From Halapricum desulfuricans (lineage in GTDB: Archaea > Halobacteriota > Halobacteria > Halobacteriales > Haloarculaceae), in the NCBI RefSeq assembly GCF_017094525.1, contig NZ_CP064788.1:2589030-2653029 (forward strand): DNA of 64,000 nt, written 5' to 3'. The translations under genes were made by a program, and so were the position numbers. This document shows, one piece after another, positions 8,828-35,665 of this stretch. Position 1 is the first letter of the stretch. Each line of letters starts with the position of its first letter. The notes beneath the pieces were generated by a model, which was not told where the DNA came from, made no database searches, and was given only the letters and a program-made list of their open reading frames with translations.

Positions 8828-11122
8828 ATGGACGTTGCGGAGATCCCTGCGGTCCCGGAGTGGCTCCCCGAGCACCTGCAGGCAGCGGGTATCGAATCCC
8901 TCTATCCCCCGCAGGCAGAAGCCGTCGAGGCCGGCGTCACCGAGGGCGAGAATCTGGTCGCGTCGATCCCGACGGCCAGCGGCAAGACCCTGATCGCGGA
9001 ACTGGCGATGCTCGCGAGCGTCGCCCGCGGCGGGAAGGCCCTCTACATCGTCCCGCTGCGGGCGCTGGCCAGCGAGAAACACGCCGAGTTCGAGCAGTTC
9101 GAACAGTACGGCCTCGACGTGGGCGTCTCGACGGGCAACTACGAGTCCGAGGGCGGGTGGCTCGCGGGCAAAGACGTCATCGTCGCGACCAGCGAGAAGG
9201 TCGACTCGCTGGTGCGAAACGGCGCGCCGTGGCTCGAGGAGTTGACCTGCGTCGTCGCCGACGAGGTGCATCTGGTCGACGACGGCGAGCGCGGCCCGAC
9301 GCTTGAGGTGACGCTGGCGAAGCTCCGTCGGATCACCGCCGACCTCCAGACGGTCGCGCTGTCGGCGACCATCGGCAACGCCGGGCAGCTGGCCGACTGG
9401 CTCGACGCCGAACTGCTCGACTCCGACTGGCGGCCGATCGACCTCAAGAAGGGCGTCCACTACGGGCAGGCGCTCCACCTGGAGGACGGCAGCCAGCGCG
9501 AGTTGCGCGTCCGCGACGGCGAGAAGCAGACGGCCGCGATCGTCCGGGATACGCTCGAACCCGACCGCGACGAGGACGGGACGATACGCGAGGACGGCGG
9601 GTCGTCGCTGGTGTTCGTCAACTCCCGGCGCAACGCCGAGGCGGCGGCCGGTCGGCTCGCCGGCGTCGTCGAGGAGTTCCTCGACGCCGAGGAGCGCGAG
9701 GCGCTTGCCGACGTGGCGGCGGAGATCCGGGACGTCAGCGACACCGAGACCAGCGACGACCTGGCCGACGCGGTCGAGGGGGGCGCGGCCTTCCACCACG
9801 CGGGCCTCTCGCGGGGTCACCGCGAACTCGTCGAGGACGCGTTCCGCGATCGGCTGATCAAGGTCGTCAGCGCGACGCCGACGCTGGCGGCGGGCGTCAA
9901 CACGCCCTCTCGTCGGGTGATCGTCCGGGACTGGCGGCGCTACGACGGGACCGCCGGCGGGATGACCCCGCTGTCGGTGCTGGAGGTCCACCAGATGATG
10001 GGGCGTGCCGGCCGTCCCGGGCGGGACCCCTACGGCGAGGCGGTGTTGACCGCAAGCAGTCACGACGAACTCGACGAGCTGTTCGAACGGTACGTCTGGG
10101 CCGAACCCGAACCCGTCCGGTCGAAACTGGCCGCCGAGCCGGCCCTTCGCACCCACGTCCTCGCGACCGTCGCCTCGGGATTCGCGAGCACGCGCGAGGG
10201 GCTGCTGGAGTTTCTGGAGGCGACGCTGTACGCGACCCAGACCGACGGGCGGGACCGCCTGGAGGAGGTGACCGATGAGGTGATCGCGTATCTCGAACGG
10301 AACGGCTTTCTCACGCGCGATGAGGGGCTCACCGCGACGAACCTCGGACACACGGTCTCGCGGCTGTATCTCGACCCGATGAGCGCGGCGGAGATTATCG
10401 ACGGGCTGGAAGCTGCCGACGACCGGCCCACGGTGCTGGGCCTCTATCAGCTGGTCGCCCGGACGCCGGACATGTACGAACTGTATCTCCGTTCCGGCGA
10501 GGACGAGGAGTACACCATGCTGGCCTACGAGCGCGAGGAGGAGTTCCTCGGACCGATGCCCAGCGAGTTCGAGGACGAGCGCTTCGACGACTGGCTCTCG
10601 GCGCTGAAGACCGCTCGACTGCTCGAGGACTGGGCGAGCGAACTCGACGAGGACGAGATCACCGACCGGTACGGGATCGGGCCGGGAGACATCCGCGGGA
10701 AGGTCGAGGCCGCCTCGTGGCTGCTCGGGGCCGCCGAGTCGCTGGGGGGCGAACTCGGTCTGGAGTGGACGCCAGCGATCCGACAGGCCCGGACCCGGGT
10801 CGAGGACGGCGTCAGGGAGGAGTTGCTCGATCTGGTCAGCGTCCGTGGCGTGGGGCGCAAGCGCGCCCGGCGACTCTACGACGCCGGGATCGATGACCGC
10901 GCGGCGCTGCGCGAGGCCGACAAGTCGGCCGTGCTGGCCGCACTGCGGGGACGGCGTTCGACCGCCGAGACGATCCTGGAGAACGTCGGGCATCGCGATC
11001 CCTCGATGGACGGCGTCGAACCCGACCCGGAGGCCGCACCGACCGACGGCGGCTCGACCGACAGCGACGCCTCGTCGGCCGGGACGAAGACGGACGATCA
11101 GGCGAGTCTGGGTGATTTCTGA
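8828..11122 (+). CDS. hel308: ATP-dependent DNA helicase Hel308
   Basis: A 764-residue superfamily 2 Ski2-like helicase that acts on stalled forks. Walker A is PTASGKT (48-54), the DEVH box is [11 protein letters not shown], and motif VI reads [17 protein letters not shown]. The ratchet domain and a C-terminal helix-hairpin-helix segment ([19 protein letters not shown]) are present, followed by an acidic Ser/Thr tail ending QASLGDF, which resembles a PCNA-interacting peptide. The last codons overlap cgi121 by one base, indicating translational coupling. Confidence 0.96.
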
Positions 11123-26874: not shown

Positions 26875-26967
26875 CCGATTGCGGGGTCGTTCCCGGGCGA
26901 GAGTACCCGAGGGGAGCGCGCTGGTGATGTCCAAAGCATTTTGTAGGGCTTGAGCCAACGTACGTCC

Positions 26968-27303
26968 ATGAGCGAGCACACCGTGGAGTTCGTGGGCACC
27001 GGCGAGACGGTCACCGTCTCCGAGAAGGAGACGATCCTCGACCGGTGTGTCGAGGAGGGGATCGCTCAGGAGTACTCCTGTCGCGTCGGGATGTGTCTGG
27101 CCTGCTCGGCGAAGATCGTCGAGGGCGAGGTGACCCAGCCCGCCGCGCGCGGTCTCAGCGAGGACGAACGCGAAGAATACGCCCTGACGTGCATGGCCCG
27201 CCCTCAGTCCGATCTGAAACTCCGTCGCGGGGAGTACCCGCCCAGTATCGAAGACGAGGCGATCGACGGCGGAGCGGATGAGCCTGCGGCCGCGGACGAT
27301 TGA
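26968..27303 (+). CDS. [2Fe-2S] plant-type ferredoxin
   Basis: A ~111-residue ferredoxin with the cluster ligands C38-x4-C43-x2-C46 in YSCRVGMCLACSAKI and C75 in ALTCMARP. An acidic C-terminal tail follows the domain. It lacks the acidic N-terminal insertion of the main halobacterial ferredoxin, so it is a paralogue with an unknown partner. A longer reading from 26950 is possible, but MSEHTVEFVG is the family-like start. It is convergent with the DUF1102-like gene at 27304, whose stop directly abuts. Confidence 0.93.
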   Translation: MSEHTVEFVGTGETVTVSEKETILDRCVEEGIAQEYSCRVGMCLACSAKIVEGEVTQPAARGLSEDEREEYALTCMARPQSDLKLRRGEYPPSIEDEAIDGGADEPAAADD

Positions 27304-27948
27304 TTACGAACACTCGATCTCGCCAGGATTGACGCTTCCGATTGCTGTCGCGGGTCCGTCCCCGTTATCGCACTTTTTATATGTCATATTAGTCGAGTCG
27401 ACGTACACGGCAGTAATCGATCCATCTTGGTCTTTGAGCTGATTGCCGTTCAAAGAGTCGCCTGTGAATTCCTGAGGGACGTTTTCCGTCCAGTAGGTCC
27501 CGCTTGCATCGGCAACAGTGATGAGTGCGTTGCCACTTTTTCCGGGGAATGCCACGACCCGATTATTCGGAATCTGACACTCCGTCGGCACGGACCGATC
27601 GAGTTCGGCGGAGATTCCGTCCCCTTCGACAGTAACGGTAACGGGGTCTTCAGACTCGACGCTGATGAAGCTGGTCGTCACGTCTTCCCCGGATCCGAGA
27701 GGGTCTAATTCTCTCTCGGTATCGTCGACAGTCACTGTTACCGTAACGTCGCTATCGAACCGATTCGTGATCGTTATCTCGAACCCTTCTCCATCACATT
27801 CGTCCGCATAACCGACGTACGCCTCCTCGTCACCGGCCACGGAGACGGAGACCCCCCGGTCGGCCGACATCGCGCTGAACCCGCCAGTCCCGAGTATCAG
27901 CAGGACGGCGAGCGCGAGCAGCGCGGCGTAGGCCCAGCGACGGACCAT
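27304..27948 (-). CDS. Exported DUF1102/TasA-like surface protein A
   Basis: A 214-residue protein with an N-terminal hydrophobic signal (RRWAYAALLALAVLLILGTGGFSAMSA). It is followed at the likely cleavage point by DRGVSVSVAGDEEAYVGY, the same opening as the proteins at 29007 and 29774. The mature part is beta-rich (FEITITNRFDSDVTVTVTVDDTERELDPL), as expected for a TasA/camelysin-type beta-sandwich, with Cys near the end. It is translated after the membrane-bound regulator, with a single base between. GC content is lower than in neighbours. Confidence 0.7.
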   Translation of the reverse strand: MVRRWAYAALLALAVLLILGTGGFSAMSADRGVSVSVAGDEEAYVGYADECDGEGFEITITNRFDSDVTVTVTVDDTERELDPLGSGEDVTTSFISVESEDPVTVTVEGDGISAELDRSVPTECQIPNNRVVAFPGKSGNALITVADASGTYWTENVPQEFTGDSLNGNQLKDQDGSITAVYVDSTNMTYKKCDNGDGPATAIGSVNPGEIECS

Positions 27949-27949
27949 G

Positions 27950-28600
27950 TCACTCCCTCACTTCTGGCGGACTCTCGGAGTCACCCAGTCGCATCTCGGT
28001 ACGACTGTAGTACGTGTGGACGAGCGCGGACACGAGAAACGTCGTCGCGACGAACAGTCCCCACCCGGCGTCCGGGACGAGCCGGAGGGGGTAGGTCCCT
28101 GCCGTGGCGGCGACGAGCAGCCCGAGGTTTACGGCCGCGAGCCCGAGGTAATACTGGCTCCAGGGGACGTCGTTGCCCTCGACGACCTCGAGATAGACGT
28201 CCATCTGTTCGGCGGCGGGCGTGAGCTCAACAACGCCCTCACGGTCGTCGAACTCGACGACGCCCTTGTCGTCCATCTTCGGCAGGTGGAACTGCTGGAG
28301 GGAGGTGTAGACGCGCTTGCGCTCGCTGGCGGAGATCTCCTGGACGCCGCTGTCGTTCTCCCAGGCGGCGACGTGCTCGGAGAGCTCGCCCAGCTCCGCG
28401 CGCTCGCCGTTGTGCTGGAGGTGGTGCAGCGCGAACCGACGCCGACGGTTGCTGAGTATCTCGAACGCGTCGTCCCGGGAGAGCTCCGGCTCCGGCGACG
28501 CACTGCGTTCGTCCTTTCCCTGCGCGCCGTCGTCCGGTCCCACTCCGGCGACGGATTGCCCGTCTGTCGAGGCCGTAACGGCCTCGGTCTTGCTTGCCAT
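27950..28600 (-). CDS. Winged-helix regulator with two transmembrane helices (DUF7344 type)
   Basis: A ~216-residue protein. An acidic Ser-rich N-terminus leads to a winged-helix domain (LSRDDAFEILSNRRRRFALHHLQHNGERAELGELSEHVAAWEN ... VYTSLQQFHLPKMDDKGVVEFDDREGVVELTP), the haloarchaeal DUF7344 pattern. Two membrane helices (YYLGLAAVNLGLLVAATAGTYPL and GLFVATTFLVSALVHTYY) make it a membrane-tethered DNA-binding protein. It is the first gene of the minus-strand pair and probably senses or controls the surface-protein locus. A TATA-like GATAAATG lies near 28622. Confidence 0.8.
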   Translation of the reverse strand: MASKTEAVTASTDGQSVAGVGPDDGAQGKDERSASPEPELSRDDAFEILSNRRRRFALHHLQHNGERAELGELSEHVAAWENDSGVQEISASERKRVYTSLQQFHLPKMDDKGVVEFDDREGVVELTPAAEQMDVYLEVVEGNDVPWSQYYLGLAAVNLGLLVAATAGTYPLRLVPDAGWGLFVATTFLVSALVHTYYSRTEMRLGDSESPPEVRE

Positions 28601-29006
28601 AAGGGCCCACCTACGTGTCAGACATTTATCTCCAACCAAACAAAAAGGTATTGGTCAGTACAATATTCCCCCTCGGTGAACGGTTCTAAACGGTTGTATT
28701 CGGAGATTTTCTATAATCTCGGGTTAGTGTTTGGTAATTCACCATAGAATAATATTGTCCTAATATATTCGACTGTGATATCTCGTGATTTCAGGCACCG
28801 TTTGGGCCGGGCGACAGCGGTTCAAAGACTGTAATCCGGAATTTCTGGGGGAGCCAGCAGGTCAGTCAAGCGGGTCAATACAAGGTGGGAAGGGCCACTG
28901 TTGTCGAGCAAGCGCGCCCCGGGACCACGATCAGGCCGGTGACGCCGAACGGTCGGTGTCGAAGTAGGTGGGGTTCGGGGGCGTGCGGACAAGAGGTAGA
29001 CCAACC
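28601..29006. promoter_or_regulatory. Regulatory spacer of the surface-protein locus
   Basis: This 406-base stretch separates the divergent regulator and first plus-strand DUF1102 gene. Its left half (28620-28790) is unusually AT-rich for this genome and contains the direct repeat AACGGTT at 28679 and 28689. The right half is GC-rich and may be a 5' leader of the plus-strand transcript. No coding frame with normal codon use is present. Confidence 0.5.
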
Positions 29007-29651
29007 ATGACAAAACGACGCAAGTTCCTGCTCGGAATGGGATCGCTCGCTGCCGGTGGGGCAGCTGCAATGGGAAGTGGCGCGTTCACGAGTGTGCAGG
29101 CGGAACGGGGTATCACAGTGGAGACCGCAAATGATGCTAATGGGCTCCTCGGTATCGAACCGTACCCGAGTGGTGACCTTGGTGAAAATCCCAGCTATAC
29201 TGATGACGACGGCAACGGCAACGGAGAGTACGCAGAGGCTGTCGACGGTGAGATTGTGTTAGATTTCACCGAGACCACTGGTTCCGACGACGAGGACACT
29301 GGGCTGAACGAGAACGCGAAAACTAATATCGAAAACGTCCTCAAAATTACCAACAACGGTACGCAGGATGTCTACGTGACCGTCAAAGTCACGGACACCG
29401 ACGATAATACCGGGACGGCAGCTGTCGGTCTGTCGGAGTTCGGCGTCTCCGGGGACCCCGATGTCGACTTCGCTCGACTCGCCGGCAGTTACGATGGCGA
29501 TAAGCTTCCAGCTGGAGACTCCGCTGGCATGGGATTCTACTTCTTCCTCGACGAAGACAAGAGCTACGAGGACATTATCAATGATATCGACACGATTACT
29601 ATCGTTGCCGCGGAGAGTAAAAGCGCATTAGATCGGTACAGGCCTGATTAA
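29007..29651 (+). CDS. Tat-exported DUF1102-like surface protein B
   Basis: A ~214-residue protein starting MTKRRKFLLGMGSLAAGGAA. It has a twin-arginine type signal, and the probable cleavage follows FTSVQA. The mature protein begins ERGITVETANDANGLLGIEP, the DUF1102 opening. A beta-rich domain follows with ENVLKITNNGTQDVYVTVKVTDTD, the strand-turn motif that TasA/camelysin-like proteins share, and an Asp-rich loop. Length and architecture match a filament subunit assembled outside the cell. It is the first of two tandem paralogues. Confidence 0.78.
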   Translation: MTKRRKFLLGMGSLAAGGAAAMGSGAFTSVQAERGITVETANDANGLLGIEPYPSGDLGENPSYTDDDGNGNGEYAEAVDGEIVLDFTETTGSDDEDTGLNENAKTNIENVLKITNNGTQDVYVTVKVTDTDDNTGTAAVGLSEFGVSGDPDVDFARLAGSYDGDKLPAGDSAGMGFYFFLDEDKSYEDIINDIDTITIVAAESKSALDRYRPD

Positions 29652-29773
29652 TCCAACGAGTGCCCGCAGAGAGTCGGACACACCAACGCATCGGTTCAAC
29701 GATTGGAGAACGCCCACGCTGGCGCACGGCGGTTCGATTCCGTCGGTGGGTTTCCCCGTAGGTGGGGTCACAT

Positions 29774-30937
29774 ATGAAACGACGCAACGTACTGGCTGCG
29801 CTCGGTTCGCTCAGTGCCGGCGGAGCCCTCACAGTCGGATCGGGCGCGTTCACCAGCGTTAGCGCAGACCGAGCAGTGACTGTCGATGTCGTCGGTGACG
29901 CCGATGCCTTCCTTCGACTCGCACCCTGTGATGGATCGTCGAACGGCGACTACGTCGCGAACGCCTCGGAGGGAGCGATGGCTATCGACCTCGCGGATGG
30001 TGACAGTAACGTTGCCGGCAGTGGCGTCAATCCCGAAGCACATTCGGTGTTCCACAACGTCTTCGAGATCTGCAACCAGGGGACTCAGCCAGTGTGTGTC
30101 GACTTCGCGGTCGACGTGCCGTCGATTCCCGGTCCAGTTCCGGATCGGTACGGGTTTGAAGAGGGGGACCCAGCAGTCGTCTTCTATCGGGCGGACAATC
30201 CGGACGACACGGTCAACGTCGACGACCTCGATACGGACCGAAGCGGGGCGTTCCCTCTGGATGTCGGCGATTGCCAGTGTGTCGGATTCGAAGTCCGGGC
30301 ATTCGGCTTTGAATCAGGCGCGGATCTCTTCGGGGATACCGACCTCGAGATTCGCGCGCAGGCCAGTGCTAACTGTGGAAGCGAAGATGCGCCTCCAGGG
30401 TTGATCCCCCCGGAGCAGCTTCGTTTAGACACTGGCGGCGAACTAAACTGGCAGGAAACCTACTGGCAAGTCGTGAGTGGACCCGGGACAGATGGACCCG
30501 GGACAGAGGATACATCCTACCGCGCAAAGGTGGTGGATGACCCACCGAACGATTGGGACACGTCCTCCCCAGAGGCCTCGTGGGTCGATCCGTTCGGAAC
30601 GGGCGGACTGGACAGCGATCCAGCCGATGCAGAAGATCCGTATGTATATGAACTGGCCTTTTCTGTCCCTGCTACTTTTGACCTCGTCATGGAGGAATAC
30701 GGCTCCGATAACCCAGTCACGTTCCTCCTTGATGGTACAGAGATCGGGAGCAGCCCGGACGGAGAAGACGCGTACAACCCACTCAAGGACAATATCTCCA
30801 GCCAACAGATCGAAGCAGGAAACCACACTTTGCGAGCTGAGGTCATCAATGAGCCCCAATCGGGTACGTCTGTGACGGGGAATCCGACAGGATTGTTGGT
30901 CGCCGCGAGGCTTGAGCCTCCCCAAGAGCCTAACTAG
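29774..30937 (+). CDS. Tat-exported DUF1102-like surface protein C with extra beta domain
   Basis: A ~387-residue protein starting MKRRNVLAALGSLSAGGALT with mature start near DRAVTVDVVGDADAFLRLAP. Residues ~30-210 repeat the DUF1102 fold of the upstream gene (VFEICNQGTQPVCVDFAVDVP), with added Cys pairs (CDCQC-like DCQCVGFEVRAFG). From ~215 there is a second domain (WQVVSGPGTDGPGTEDTSYRAKVVDDPPNDW ... FLLDGTEIGSS ... HTLRAEVINEP), a jelly-roll pattern like carbohydrate-binding modules. The linker holds a 15-base tandem repeat at 30479-30508. It may be the tip or adhesive subunit. Confidence 0.75.
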   Translation: MKRRNVLAALGSLSAGGALTVGSGAFTSVSADRAVTVDVVGDADAFLRLAPCDGSSNGDYVANASEGAMAIDLADGDSNVAGSGVNPEAHSVFHNVFEICNQGTQPVCVDFAVDVPSIPGPVPDRYGFEEGDPAVVFYRADNPDDTVNVDDLDTDRSGAFPLDVGDCQCVGFEVRAFGFESGADLFGDTDLEIRAQASANCGSEDAPPGLIPPEQLRLDTGGELNWQETYWQVVSGPGTDGPGTEDTSYRAKVVDDPPNDWDTSSPEASWVDPFGTGGLDSDPADAEDPYVYELAFSVPATFDLVMEEYGSDNPVTFLLDGTEIGSSPDGEDAYNPLKDNISSQQIEAGNHTLRAEVINEPQSGTSVTGNPTGLLVAARLEPPQEPN

Positions 30938-30953
30938 CCACTGATAATCGGCG

Positions 30954-31103
30954 TCACTCCGCGTTTTCCAGGAAGATGATTTTCTGATACGCCTCTCTGA
31001 TGTGATACTTCGCGGTGTCGTCCTCCGCGTTTTCCAGTGCCTTTGCCAGGTGGCTCTGGAGCGACGAAAGATCAGCGTCGTTAGTCCGTTTTTTGATTGA
31101 CAT
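30954..31103 (-). CDS. 49-residue haloarchaeal small helical protein
   Basis: The frame reads MSIKKRTNDADLSSLQSHLA through KYHIREAYQKIIFLENAE. Short proteins ending in a KYHIREA...-like helix recur in haloarchaea, so this is likely real. Two amphipathic helices are predicted. It lies opposite to the surface-protein genes and interrupts their run. No function is known. Confidence 0.55.
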   Translation of the reverse strand: MSIKKRTNDADLSSLQSHLAKALENAEDDTAKYHIREAYQKIIFLENAE

Positions 31104-31340
31104 CCTGGTAGGAGCTTGGAACCAGATCCCCTTTGTAATGTCGTGCGTGTCTATCCTCAAGCAGCCTCTACTCGCAGTACAAACTGTGATAACAAATGCC
31201 ACGAAACTGGCGTCGCCGATCCCCGGCCAGCGGCCGGACAGTCGCGTTCAGACACTGTTTGAACCCCTTCTCGCGGATCAATACAAGGGACGTCCGGCCG
31301 GTACGTCTCTCGTACCGACAGTACCGTCGGCGGTCTGACC

Positions 31341-32180
31341 GTGACTCGAACGTCGCTCCTCGTCGCCGTGCTCGTCGCCTCGACAGCCCTGCTCGTCTCG
31401 ACCGGGGCGGTCCCGTTCTCGGACGGCACCGACGAGATCTCCGGAGTCAACATCGAGATGTCGCCGGCCGACGGCCCGAACGGCCAGTACGCCGTCATCG
31501 ACGAGACGGGCGAACTCGCACTGGTGTTGTCCGGTGAGAACCCCGACCTCGAGGTCGGCGGCGTTCCCGGCGACGCGGTCACGCCGCTCGATCGCGTGTT
31601 CACGATCACCTACACCGGCGACCTGTTCGCGCGCGTCTGGATCACCGACGACGCCGAGGACGTCCGATTCTATCGCGGGGGCGATCCTGACGAGACACTC
31701 GAAGGGTCTGACAACGCCGTCACGCTCGGCCCGAACGAGACGCTCAAGGTCGGGTTGCGCGTCGACACGCGCGGCGATCACGACGTCGAGAGCGCTTCGA
31801 CGTTCGGCGTGAGCGTCGAGCAGGCCACGCCTACCTCTGCGGAGATATCGGGAGATTCGTCGGCAGAGACACCGACGACCCAGACCGCAGTCGAGGCGCC
31901 GACGGAGTCGACGATGCCCCTCACGACAGAGACGACACAGCCGAGTAACAGCCCGACTGACGGCGAAGTCGGCAACGAGACGACAACCGAAGCCGGGCCG
32001 GTACCGCCCGTCGGTGCTGACACGACCACAGGAACGGCAACTGGCGGCGACGACTCACCCGCCGGCGGACTCCCGGCCGAGGTCGGTGGCTTCGACCTGG
32101 CCGTGGCTGTTCCCGCCCTCTCGTTGCTGGCGCTTGCGCTGCTCGCTCTGGCGTGGTACCGACGGCGGAGCGACCGGTAG
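31341..32180 (+). CDS. Membrane-anchored DUF1102-like surface protein D
   Basis: A 279-residue protein from a GTG start. It has an N-terminal signal (TSLLVAVLVASTALLVSTGAVPFS), then a mature beta-domain (INIEMSPADGPNGQYAVIDETGELALVLSGENPDLEVGGVPGDAVTPLDRVFTITYTGDLFARVWI). A ~100-residue Thr/Ser/Pro-rich stalk suited to O-glycosylation and a C-terminal transmembrane helix (LAVAVPALSLLALALLALAWYRRR) with a basic stop follow. It is probably the membrane base of the surface structure. It is the first gene of a plus-strand run with the rhomboid, signal peptidase and DUF5305 genes. Confidence 0.78.
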   Translation: MTRTSLLVAVLVASTALLVSTGAVPFSDGTDEISGVNIEMSPADGPNGQYAVIDETGELALVLSGENPDLEVGGVPGDAVTPLDRVFTITYTGDLFARVWITDDAEDVRFYRGGDPDETLEGSDNAVTLGPNETLKVGLRVDTRGDHDVESASTFGVSVEQATPTSAEISGDSSAETPTTQTAVEAPTESTMPLTTETTQPSNSPTDGEVGNETTTEAGPVPPVGADTTTGTATGGDDSPAGGLPAEVGGFDLAVAVPALSLLALALLALAWYRRRSDR

Positions 32181-32228
32181 AGACCGTCAGGAATAGGTCA
32201 GTCGCCCGTCACTCCCGAAACGAAACAG

Positions 32229-33143
32229 ATGGACGACGACTCTCGGTCGAGGAGCGCGGACCCCCTGGGGCGGACGATCCGCGAGCGTGCGGCCCCGGCC
32301 GACCTGCTGTTGCTCTCGATCGCTCCCGCCGTCCTGCTGGCGGTCTACGCCCTGCCGACCGCGACCCGGGAGGCGCTCGTTTTCGAGTACGCGGCTCCGA
32401 CCGTCCGGACCGCGGTCGCGTCCCCGTTCGTCCACTTCAGGTGGTCACACCTGCTGTTCAACCTCGGTGGCTACGTGCTGGTCGCGGGGACGGCCTACGT
32501 CCTGAGCGTCGCGGCCGATCGTCGCCGCGAGTTCGTGATCGTCTTCGCGTCGCTGCTGCTCGCCAGCCCGCCACTGCTGTCGGCGCTCAATCTCACGATC
32601 GTCAGACGCGGCGTCGCGTACGGGTTCTCCGGCGTGGTGATGGTCTACTACGGGACGCTCGCGATCGCGATCGCCGTGCACGCCCAACAGCGCCTGGACG
32701 TGAGCGACGCCCGGAGCGTCGCCCCGCTGCTGTTCTTTCTCGGACTGCTTGTCGTGACTACACAGACGCTCCGGGCGGTGCTCGGCCGCCCCGTCACGGT
32801 CGCCGTCGAGGGGGTTCCCACGTCGGTCACGTGGGTGCTCGTGGCGACGCTCGCGGAGTTGCTGGTGCTTCTGGCGCTGGTCGTGACGCTGTACGCGCTG
32901 TCGATTGCCGACGGCGACCCGATCGGGCGACAACTGCGGGCGGCCGTCGAACGGAGCGGCGACGCCGAACTCGCCGTCAGCGCTCTGCTCCTGTTTCTGG
33001 CGGTCCCGTTCGCGACGTTCCCGCCCGATCCCGTCTCCGGAACCCGGGTGTTCAACCTCTACGTTCACGCGGTCGGGTACGCGCTAGGCTTTATCGCCGC
33101 CTACCTCTATCACGTACTCGGGCGCAGCGGGGATCGCAGCTGA
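32229..33143 (+). CDS. Rhomboid-like intramembrane serine protease
   Basis: A 304-residue membrane protein with six to seven helices. Rhomboid features are visible: H69 and H74/N78 in FVHFRWSHLLFNLGGYV (the H-x3-H-x3-N type motif of helix 2), the nucleophile motif G-F-S134-G, and a His at about 280 in the last helix (NLYVHAVGYALGFIAAYL). These are the expected Ser-His dyad positions. Such enzymes cut within membrane anchors. Placement between an anchored surface protein and a signal peptidase suggests it releases or matures that protein. Confidence 0.75.
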   Translation: MDDDSRSRSADPLGRTIRERAAPADLLLLSIAPAVLLAVYALPTATREALVFEYAAPTVRTAVASPFVHFRWSHLLFNLGGYVLVAGTAYVLSVAADRRREFVIVFASLLLASPPLLSALNLTIVRRGVAYGFSGVVMVYYGTLAIAIAVHAQQRLDVSDARSVAPLLFFLGLLVVTTQTLRAVLGRPVTVAVEGVPTSVTWVLVATLAELLVLLALVVTLYALSIADGDPIGRQLRAAVERSGDAELAVSALLLFLAVPFATFPPDPVSGTRVFNLYVHAVGYALGFIAAYLYHVLGRSGDRS

Positions 33144-33194
33144 TCCAGGCCACACCCATCAGGTATTTATCACGACGGCCGCAACGAGACGGTA

Positions 33195-34340
33195 ATGGAC
33201 TGGCGGGGGACAGCCACGAAAGCCGTGGGTGCGGTGCTCGCACTCGCGCTCGTCGCGCTCGTCGTCGGCCAGTTGCTCGGCCAGCCGGTCCTGTTGAGTT
33301 ACGTCACCACCGGGAGCATGGAGCCGACGATCGGTACCGGTGACGGTTTCGTCGCGGTTCCGTCGGCGGTCGCGGGCCCGATTGAGGAGGGCGACGTCGT
33401 CGTGTTCGAGGCAGAGGAGATCCAGGGCGGTGGGCTCACGACACACCGCGTCGTCGGGGAGACCGACCGCGGGTTCGTCACGCGAGGGGACGCCAACCCG
33501 TTCACCGATCAGGACGGTGGCGAGCCACCGGTCAAGCGCGAACAGATCGTCGCCGTCGCCTGGCAGGTCGGCGACGAGCCGGTCGTGATCCCGCATCTTG
33601 GGACGGTCGCCGAGGGAGTTCAGGGGGGTGTCGAGACGCTCCAGTTCCGTCTGGCCGGCCTGCTGGGGACGCGCTCGCTGCTCGGCACGCAGGGGTTCGG
33701 CTATCTCATCTTCGGTCTGACGGTCCTCCTGTACGCGATCGACGTCTTCCTCAGCAGCGACCGGCGACGGGATCGGGCTCGCGAGCGCGATAGCGGGCTC
33801 AGCGCCCGCGTCGTGGTCGGCGCGATGGCGGCGTCGCTAATGCTGGCAGCGACGGCTGCCATGGTCGCTCCGGCCGGGCCGCAGTCGTTCGAGATCGTCA
33901 GCTCCGAGTTCGAGTCCGAGCGGTCGGACGTCATCGAGGCCGGAACGAACGAATCGCTACAGTTCACGGTCGGCAACGGCGGGCAGGTGCCCGTCTACGT
34001 CTACTTCGAGGAAGGCAGCGAAAACATCGATATCGAGCCCGACCGGTTCGAGGTCGGCGGCAACGAGCTGGTCAACGGCACGCTCACGCTCACCGCACCA
34101 CCCGAGACCGGGTCGTATCGGCTGTTCCTGACCGAACACAGATATCTCGCGCTGCTACCCGAATCACAGGTTCGAGCCCTCTATTCGGTTCATCCGTGGC
34201 TGCCGATCGTCGTCATCGACGCGCTGATCGGGGTCCCCTTCTACCTCGCTGGGATCGCGCTCGTCGGCACGGAACGGGTGCGCCGACGCGACAGAGAGGG
34301 GCCATCGACGAGCGATCGGATCCTCGCACGGTTGCGATAA
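33195..34340 (+). CDS. SipW/ER-type signal peptidase I with extra C-terminal membrane domain
   Basis: A 381-residue protein. After one helix, TTGSMEP has the catalytic Ser41, and TTHRVVGETDRGFVTRGDANP supplies His84 in place of the bacterial Lys, the SipW/SEC11 Ser-His type. A region of ~190 further residues is not part of the minimal enzyme: a second helix (GYLIFGLTVLLYAIDVFL), a third (VVVGAMAASLMLAATAAMVAP), an exterior beta-domain (FEIVSSEFESERSDVIEAGTNESLQFTVGNGGQVPVYVYFEEG) and a last helix. The beta-domain resembles its putative substrates. It probably processes the DUF1102-like proteins. Confidence 0.88.
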   Translation: MDWRGTATKAVGAVLALALVALVVGQLLGQPVLLSYVTTGSMEPTIGTGDGFVAVPSAVAGPIEEGDVVVFEAEEIQGGGLTTHRVVGETDRGFVTRGDANPFTDQDGGEPPVKREQIVAVAWQVGDEPVVIPHLGTVAEGVQGGVETLQFRLAGLLGTRSLLGTQGFGYLIFGLTVLLYAIDVFLSSDRRRDRARERDSGLSARVVVGAMAASLMLAATAAMVAPAGPQSFEIVSSEFESERSDVIEAGTNESLQFTVGNGGQVPVYVYFEEGSENIDIEPDRFEVGGNELVNGTLTLTAPPETGSYRLFLTEHRYLALLPESQVRALYSVHPWLPIVVIDALIGVPFYLAGIALVGTERVRRRDREGPSTSDRILARLR

Positions 34341-34387
34341 CGGGACCGACGACAGCCTTAATATCAACGCGTTGAATGCTAAACGTG

Positions 34388-35665
34388 ATGGAAGAACGGG
34401 GTCTCCGCGTCCGGGCTGTCCTCGACCGATATTTCAGTATCGCTGTGCTGGCGCTCGCGGTCCTGATCGTCGTCGGCGGAGGGGTCGCATACGCCGCACA
34501 CACCGGGCCGGACGAACGGACCGAGACGACGACCGAGACGGTGATCCTCTGGAACTCGACCGGACAGTTCAGCCACGAGGCGACGGTCGTCGAGGACACC
34601 AGAGTCTTCGAGGCGGGCGAGACGCTGACGAACCGCTCTCAGTACTTCCAGCGGATCGCACCCACTCTCGAAGGGGCGTTCGTCTACGACTACGAGGCCG
34701 AGAGCGGTTCGGTCGCGGCGAACGCGTCGATGGCGCTGGTCATCCGTTCGGTCACCGAGGACGGAACCGAGCAATGGCGGGTCACGGAGTCGCTCGAGCG
34801 GGCAGACCGAACGCTCGGACCCGGCGATCCCCTCCGCTTGACGTTCGAGCAGAACGTCACCGTGGTGGAAGCCGAGCTAACGGAGATCCGGTCCGAACTC
34901 GGGGCGACCGCCGGCACCGCGGAGACGTTCTTCGAGGTGACGGTGCGTCTCGACGGAAGCCGGAGCGGTGAGCCGGTCGAGACGACCCGGTCCTACCGGC
35001 TCCCACTCACGATCGAAGACGGGCTCTATCGCGTCAACGACACCGGCCCCGTCGTGCACGAGGGCGAGCGAACGGTCCGCGACGAGCGGACAGTGCCGGT
35101 CACGGTCGGTCCGATCCGGACGTACGGCGGCCCGCTGCTCGCTGTTCTCGGACTCGCAGGCTTGGCTGGACTGGTCGCCGGCCGCTGGCGGGGCTGGCTT
35201 GCGGTCAGCGAGCAGGAGCGTGACTACCTGTCCTACCGGTCGGAGCGCCGCGAGTTCGACGAGTGGATCACCGAGGTCAGGCGACCGGCAGATCGGATCG
35301 CCGACGCCGACAATCAGGCCGAAACGACGTCGCTCGCTGGACTGGTCGATCTGGCGATCGATACCGACCGGCGAGTGCTCGAAACGCCCGACGAACGGTA
35401 TCTGGTCTTCGAGGACGACGTCGTCTACAGGTACGAGCCGCCTGACGTATCTGTCGGAGACCGTGATCCGCTTGCGACGGCCGCTGAGACAGACGGTTCG
35501 TCCGGGTTGTCTGACTCGATCGGGAGCCTCCTCGACGGCGACCGCGACGTATCAGAGACGGACGACGGAGAATCGGGGACTGACGAGGCTGATACGCAAT
35601 CGGATTCCGACAGCATTGATCGATCTGAATCCGTCAGCGACGACGCACGGGACGTCGAACGGTGA
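34388..35665 (+). CDS. DUF5305 membrane protein
   Basis: A ~425-residue protein. An N-terminal helix (LDRYFSIAVLALAVLIVVGGGVAYAAH) precedes an exterior beta-rich domain of ~200 residues (TETVILWNSTGQFSHEATVVEDTRVFEAGETLTNRSQYFQRIAPTLEGAFVYDY), the DUF5305 hallmark. A second helix (GGPLLAVLGLAGLAGLVAGRW) leads to an acidic cytosolic tail. DUF5305 genes commonly sit with SipW-type peptidases in haloarchaea, as here (47 bases apart). GCCTTAATATC near 34356 may be an internal promoter, so I prefer the second ATG (34388). Its function is unknown; an assembly platform is a guess. Confidence 0.82.
   Translation: MEERGLRVRAVLDRYFSIAVLALAVLIVVGGGVAYAAHTGPDERTETTTETVILWNSTGQFSHEATVVEDTRVFEAGETLTNRSQYFQRIAPTLEGAFVYDYEAESGSVAANASMALVIRSVTEDGTEQWRVTESLERADRTLGPGDPLRLTFEQNVTVVEAELTEIRSELGATAGTAETFFEVTVRLDGSRSGEPVETTRSYRLPLTIEDGLYRVNDTGPVVHEGERTVRDERTVPVTVGPIRTYGGPLLAVLGLAGLAGLVAGRWRGWLAVSEQERDYLSYRSERREFDEWITEVRRPADRIADADNQAETTSLAGLVDLAIDTDRRVLETPDERYLVFEDDVVYRYEPPDVSVGDRDPLATAAETDGSSGLSDSIGSLLDGDRDVSETDDGESGTDEADTQSDSDSIDRSESVSDDARDVER

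Follow-up and report, generated by a model that had tools for sequence, protein, structure and literature searches.

A Tat-fimbria locus of Halapricum desulfuricans with a rhomboid protease as the proposed processor of its anchor protein

The genome of the haloarchaeon Halapricum desulfuricans carries, within the 64,000-nucleotide window that we analysed (contig NZ_CP064788.1, positions 2,589,030 to 2,653,029), a gene cluster at window positions 27304 to 35665 which is almost certainly a Tat-fimbria (tafi) locus, that is, one for fimbriae whose pilins leave the cell by twin-arginine translocation (Tat). Tafi were first described in 2025 (Galeva et al., iScience, doi 10.1016/j.isci.2025.111793), according to a paper citing that work (PMC12687288). 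Unlike the Natrinema-type tafi locus, this one holds a gene for a rhomboid intramembrane protease directly beside that of the putative fibre anchor, TafF, and we think it rather likely that the locus as a whole is a tafi locus in which the rhomboid serves as the dedicated processing enzyme of the TafF C-terminal tail. All eight genes that a sequence-only reading had called here were confirmed with the same coordinates and strands, and the features of the locus are as follows.

27304..27948, minus strand: TafC-like secreted beta-rich protein with a Sec-like signal and the opening SADRGVSVSV (NCBIfam TafC 35.3 bits, cut-off 410)
27950..28639, minus strand: DUF7344 winged-helix regulator with C-terminal transmembrane segments (PF24035, 107.7 bits), divergent from the fimbrial operon
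28951..29100, plus strand: 5' leader and Tat signal region, of which two paralogues at other places in the genome keep a conserved version
29007..29651, plus strand: Tat-signalled fimbrial subunit, TafE/TafA-like, probable main pilin (NCBIfam TafE 68.8 bits, cut-off 155)
29712..29753, plus strand: tRNA T-arm-like RNA element between the two pilin genes (covariance model R1)
29774..30937, plus strand: Tat-signalled TafE-like pilin with an extra C-terminal domain, probable tip or adapter adhesin (NCBIfam TafE 61 bits)
30954..31202, minus strand: small antisense open reading frame of 82 residues (about 48 from an inner ATG), which separates the pilin genes from TafF and whose composition points to a real gene
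31341..32180, plus strand: TafF-like anchor (NCBIfam TafF 63.7 bits, cut-off 420)
32076..32177, plus strand: TafF C-terminal tail, a candidate sorting signal (AEVGGFD, hydrophobic helix, YRRRSDR)
32229..33143, plus strand: rhomboid intramembrane serine protease, the proposed TafF processing enzyme, with HFRWSHLLFN, GFSG (Ser134) and VHAVGYALG (His280)
33195..34340, plus strand: type I archaeal Ser-His signal peptidase (TIGR02228, 56.7 bits, cut-off 51.85) with an extra C-terminal membrane and Ig-like part
34376..35665, plus strand: DUF5305 membrane protein, the last gene of the operon (PF17231, 161.5 bits)

The four secreted proteins have their best family matches in NCBIfam TafC, TafE/TafA, TafE and TafF, and none of them reaches the equivalog cut-offs for TafA, TafC, TafE and TafF (35-69 bits against 155-420). 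Since a Natrinema-type pilin that is near-identical to the solved tafi pilin also falls below the cut-off (77.9 against 155), we regard these cut-offs as lineage-specific and have not taken them as defining. The profile of the pilin family matched PDB entry 9p0a, titled 'Natrinema sp. J7-2 Tafi pilus', with an E-value of 9.7e-23, and the protein encoded at 29774 found the same entry by single sequence over residues 1-109 (E 1.9e-12), while the protein encoded at 29007 gave chance-level PDB matches by single sequence and needed the profile. An AlphaFold (AF2) model of mature 29007 (predicted local distance difference test score, pLDDT, 74; predicted template modelling score, pTM, 0.71) had as its top two Foldseek matches in the PDB 7ueg, the bundling pilus of Pyrobaculum calidifontis (E 1.2e-4), and 9p0a (E 1.4e-4), with template modelling scores of only about 0.4, so that the support is at the level of the fold. 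A PHROGs search returned weak, local matches only. The sequence-only reading had proposed a filament system of the TasA or bundling-pili kind processed by a SipW-type Ser-His signal peptidase. The relation to archaeal bundling pili was borne out, and the peptidase does score as an archaeal signal peptidase I, but the assignment to the TasA family was not: Pfam M73 (TasA/camelysin) gave no match at E<=1, the top 50 Foldseek matches of 29007 included no TasA structure, and the SipW score was 32 bits where the cut-off lies at 190. A matrix fibre of the TasA/SipW type in the strict sense, with which the locus shares the common logic of secreted beta-sandwich subunits and a linked Ser-His signal peptidase, is therefore scarcely credible; Pfam, NCBIfam and the fold search all reject such membership, the pilins bear Tat signals, and the best-matching structures are bundling pili and tafi.

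The same reading had pointed to an opening, (D/E)R(G/A)-(V/I)-(S/T)-V, common to three of the secreted proteins. The opening is real (SADRGVSVSV, QAERGITVET and SADRAVTVDV) and proved to be part of a family-wide pattern, GAF-[ST]-x-x-x-A-x-R-x-V-x-V-x-V-x-x-D-x-x-A-x-L, whose Arg is found in every one of 62 homologues aligned and in which the mature chain starts as F-[TS]-x-V-x-A-x-R. Ahead of it 29007 and 29774 carry the twin-arginine signals KRRKFLLG and MKRRNVLA, conserved across loci, by which both are predicted to be exported. The chain listed in 9p0a comprises 188 residues of a 215-residue sequence, a length to be expected if the mature chain begins at the Phe of GAF, and we infer the same cleavage site for 29007 (29085). 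Residues 1-18 of mature 29007 are mostly of low confidence in the monomer model. Among relatives of 29774 the added C-terminal modules include a LamG domain (L051), a beta-helix (L018) and, as judged from sequence, a beta-helix-like stretch (L007), and 29774 and its relatives look like tip adhesins. It is plausible that 29007 is the main pilin, 29774 the tip or adapter subunit and TafF the anchor.

Tat signals, the pairing of the rhomboid with the TafF tail and a second subunit locus lacking the machinery genes all lie beyond what the sequence-only reading had noted. The second locus lies in the same genome (L007:7588-12116; G000:C1 about 2862587-2867115) and has three taf subunit genes, one of which encodes the beta-helix-like C-terminal part, with IS4 and IS1595 transposase genes lying among them; peptidase, DUF5305 and rhomboid are absent there. 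About 150 bp of leader and Tat signal are 80-96% identical among window positions 28951-29100, L007:7551-7700 and 10430-10580, and the mature regions of the same three pilin genes are about 45% identical, as if the leaders had been exchanged or were under separate selection.

Random association of the genes in other haloarchaea was not seen. We searched 117 haloarchaeal genomes with TafF, 48 of which had a relative, and took 60 neighbourhoods, in which genes were called by a composition-based caller. The order TafC (minus), regulator (minus), then one to four TafE genes, TafF, in some loci the rhomboid, signal peptidase and DUF5305 recurs in dozens of haloarchaea from several families, so that the association is not due to chance. 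The TafC-like gene is divergent and adjoins the regulator in other taf loci too, the DUF7344 regulator keeps its position in most of them, the signal peptidase adjoins TafF in nearly all, and the DUF5305 gene is conserved together with the peptidase; the winged-helix regulator and the DUF5305 protein of the earlier description are both confirmed by their Pfam matches. In the window the genes at 31341, 32229, 33195 and 34376 are separated by 35-51 bp, which suggests a single operon. Locus L074, of the Natrinema type, has regulator, pilin, TafF, peptidase and DUF5305 in the window order without a rhomboid, and its pilin is a near-identical orthologue of 9p0a (E 4.5e-116); the Natrinema-type assignment of genus g13 rests on the 9p0a match and the TafF cut-offs, and Haloarcula belongs to the window's own family.

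TafF consists of one pilin-like domain, a Thr/Pro/Gly stalk and a C-terminal helix, and its AF2 model shows one confident domain (38-161) and a helix (253-278). Compared with the pilins it has an N-terminal segment that is some nine residues shorter and is without the R-x-V-x-V-x-x-D-x-x-A strand, so TafF may accept a strand but not donate one, as a base subunit would. In most rhomboid-linked TafF proteins the C-terminal end reads [E]EP-x-[GA]-[FI]-[GD], followed by a hydrophobic helix and then by RRxPR-like residues, and Natrinema-type TafF, whose loci have no rhomboid, is without such a tail. The window TafF tail matched the tail profile A2 with an E-value of 2.8e-10 (it is one of the 19 training rows), the next best match in the genome standing at 0.075; the tail was thus found once in this genome, in TafF, the gene next to the rhomboid. 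The rhomboid-like protease named by the sequence-only reading is convincing as such: its Pfam score is weak (18.1 bits, cut-off 22.6), but the catalytic Ser134 and His280 and the motif residues His69 and His74 are invariant in 24 homologues.

Within the 117-genome set the rhomboid was present in 24 genomes (>180 bits) and the tail in 18 (E<1e-4), and all 18 fell within the 24. In a partly independent test on further genomes outside the training set, the rhomboid was found in 36 of the 37 genomes with the tail and in 5 of the 39 without it (Fisher, p about 4e-15, with relatedness ignored); the tail match of the lone exception sits in a frame of 38 codons, and 35 rhomboid-tail pairs in these genomes lie 38-679 bp apart. 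TafF could also be a substrate of archaeosortase A (ArtA) with a variant PGF-CTERM, the rhomboid acting on another product of the operon. The three-part build of the two tails is alike, with a G-F that is often PGF-like, several TafF proteins hold PGF_pre_PGF domains, the TafF tail of L073 reads SPGFG, a tail next to a rhomboid outside the taf loci (L066) scores as PGF-CTERM, and the window genome encodes ArtA and five PGF-CTERM proteins. However, the PGF_CTERM model (TIGR04126) gave no match in the window TafF at E<=1, TafF being absent from its matches in the genome, and among the 93 genomes of the 117-genome set that have no rhomboid the tail profile found none at E<1e-4. We have rejected TafF as an ArtA substrate on the failed PGF_CTERM match and consider this alternative very unlikely.

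Stronger evidence for the pairing than this co-occurrence at the taf loci comes from rhomboids of the same subfamily that lie elsewhere. Some of these adjoin large tailed surface proteins of 560, 2976, 2473, 2616, 2649 (two Halorubrum), 508/550 (two Halorubrum) and 2748 residues, whose tails include QSGFDLSTVAV..ARRRV (L063, 560 residues), EPGGFDFGALAV..WTRAE (L067, 2976 residues), EPAGLGLPAIGG..RRRRR (L113 and L125), GEPAGLPMGL..YRTRMQE (L120, 2473 residues), EEPGGFSPVV..YARREE (L122, 2649 residues; similar in L124) and EQFGFPLEQ..YRYRQS (L123, 2616 residues). A tailed neighbour was found at 10 of 20 non-taf loci against about 0.7% of other genes, a count which includes three neighbours that were judged by eye after the automatic rule had missed them, as well as L116, where the neighbour is short and its tail rich in Gly, and L066 with its PGF-CTERM.

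These neighbours bear on the plainest alternative, that this is an ordinary tafi locus whose rhomboid is a linked quality-control or shedding protease and whose tail is a plain membrane anchor following TafF ancestry. Tail type does track the TafF tree, many tafi loci do without a rhomboid (Natrinema-type L074 and several of the Haloarcula type), and roughly one in two lone rhomboids is without a tailed neighbour; yet the rhomboid subfamily lies next to giant, unrelated proteins that carry the tail motif, and in rhomboid-positive genomes second TafF copies far from the rhomboid retain it. We judge this alternative unlikely and continue to favour the rhomboid as processor of the TafF tail, while several further observations weigh against that proposal. 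Most TafF proteins in the training set of the tail profile adjoin rhomboids, so the co-occurrence is partly circular; relatedness confounds it as well, although the tail type that follows the TafF tree so closely does so on several branches. Genomes G094 and G111 carry similar tails without a rhomboid, and in L058 and L059, both of one genus, TafF adjoins a rhomboid but has no C-terminal helix. The lone rhomboids without a tailed neighbour and the true PGF-CTERM at L066 count on the same side, as does the score of the window rhomboid with the rhombosortase model TIGR03902, 19 bits against a cut-off of 84. Lastly, the TafF domain matches MSP/Ig-like folds better than pilins.

In Haloarcula-type genomes the TafF end is different, and the state of the rhomboid varies from one genome to another: in some it is present, in others decayed or not seen. 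A remnant of the gene stands beside TafF at L133:3273-3518 in one genome of this type, and its loss is apparently under way in that genus. Three lone rhomboid genes (L114, L115 and L118) lie beside an amidase gene with no taf genes, L114 and L115 also beside a 2Fe-2S ferredoxin gene. As a ferredoxin gene (26950-27303) adjoins the window taf locus and the taf locus L111 ends at an amidase, these lone rhomboids may be remnants of lost taf loci. DUF7344-type regulators also adjoin non-taf rhomboid genes (L060:10476-11102 and L063:6777-7349), a hint of regulation through a shared circuit.

According to our proposal the pilins 29007 and 29774 would fold inside the cell before Tat export, the dedicated signal peptidase would cut them just before the Phe of GAF, and the freed N-terminal strand (R-x-V-x-V) would allow them to assemble outside the cell. 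TafF, having no donor strand, would probably sit at the base of the fibre as its anchor to the cell. The rhomboid would recognise the EPxGF/GG-helix-Arg tail of TafF and cleave it within the membrane, upon which TafF, and the fibre with it, could either be anchored anew, perhaps to a lipid as with rhombosortase, or be set free. If the anchor has a dedicated protease, the way in which a tafi fibre is held on the cell becomes directly testable; the pairing, if true, would also offer a predicted natural substrate for archaeal rhomboids and would mean that archaea, too, have a sorting system built on a rhomboid.

Between the two pilin genes lies the T-arm-like element, CCCACGCTGGCGCAC-GGCGG-TTCGATT-CCGTC-GGTGGG (29713-29750), a T-arm with acceptor-like flanks. 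In 1.5 Mb of loci, covariance model R1 found 16 copies (E<=5e-5), 12 of which had been used to build it, all in taf operons and from several families; the next matches (E 0.03) are weak and lie elsewhere, and the expectation for the window is 0.01. Most copies follow a pilin or adhesin gene, with the start codon of the next gene coming at most 28 nt after their end. Their loop varies only at positions that are variable in tRNA T-loops too: 57 (R), 59 (N) and 60 (Y), with one C at 54. The element was not found in Rfam. A viral origin was rejected, viral contigs holding no exact match of it, and so was a general RNA-fold signal, the folding energy being ordinary for GC-rich sequence (z 0.47) and the covariation weak. 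What speaks for the element is the conservation of its sequence, its position and the tRNA-like loop variation. Most likely it would act in mRNA processing or as a 3'-end site for tRNA-processing enzymes, in which case the main pilin could outnumber the downstream products and the element would be an unusual tRNA mimic within a surface-protein mRNA; alternatively, it could be a recombination site for exchanging adhesin genes. More tentatively than anything said above in favour of the rhomboid and TafF, we suggest that haloarchaea may possess a second C-terminal sorting system, an archaeal counterpart of rhombosortase in which the rhomboid serves EPxGF-type tails on TafF and giant proteins, together with T-arm mimics in some tafi operons, which tRNA-processing enzymes would cut so as to adjust the proportions of pilin, tip and anchor, a combined suggestion that could well fail.

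Among known systems, archaeosortase A with PGF-CTERM likewise sorts haloarchaeal surface proteins by their tails and is present in this genome, but it is an enzyme unrelated to the rhomboid, and its tail model does not match TafF. TasA/SipW/TapA of Bacillus is alike in its general plan, in that a beta-rich fibre is secreted and has a signal peptidase to itself, but no family-level match exists and the export route differs. Bacterial rhombosortase and GlyGly-CTERM were proposed from co-occurrence and from adjacency in genomes with a single target (Haft and Varghese 2011, PMC3237569), and there too a rhomboid protease and a three-part C-terminal tail are encoded side by side; the pairing seen here suggests, by analogy, the same "dedicated" pattern. 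It differs in being archaeal, in its tail, which is EPxGF/VGGF and not Gly/Ser-rich, and in falling below the cut-offs of both models (GlyGly-CTERM, 12 bits against 15.5). The literature consulted describes rho1/rho2 phenotypes in Haloferax, and no archaeal rhomboid-tail pair is mentioned in the relevant passages of PMC3237569, of a 2025 review on rhomboids and of a 2025 study of rhomboids in haloarchaea (PMC12615303, PMC11985538). The bundling pilus of P. calidifontis (AbpA, 7ueg) is the best fold match of 29007, with no sequence match found, the Tat signals, TafF and rhomboid being features seen at the window locus, and the Natrinema tafi structure 9p0a itself resembles Pyrobaculum bundling pili. 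With the tafi of Haloarcula hispanica and Natrinema sp. J7-2 (9p0a) the locus has in common the Tat-signalled beta-sandwich pilins, TafC-, TafE- and TafF-like partners, a linked signal peptidase and DUF5305, and with the Natrinema-type locus also the gene order; it differs from known tafi in the extra rhomboid and the TafF tail, and its related loci differ in having several pilin genes punctuated by the T-arm element. On this comparative evidence the filament itself almost certainly belongs to the known tafi kind, and it is the pairing of rhomboid and tail that would set the locus apart.

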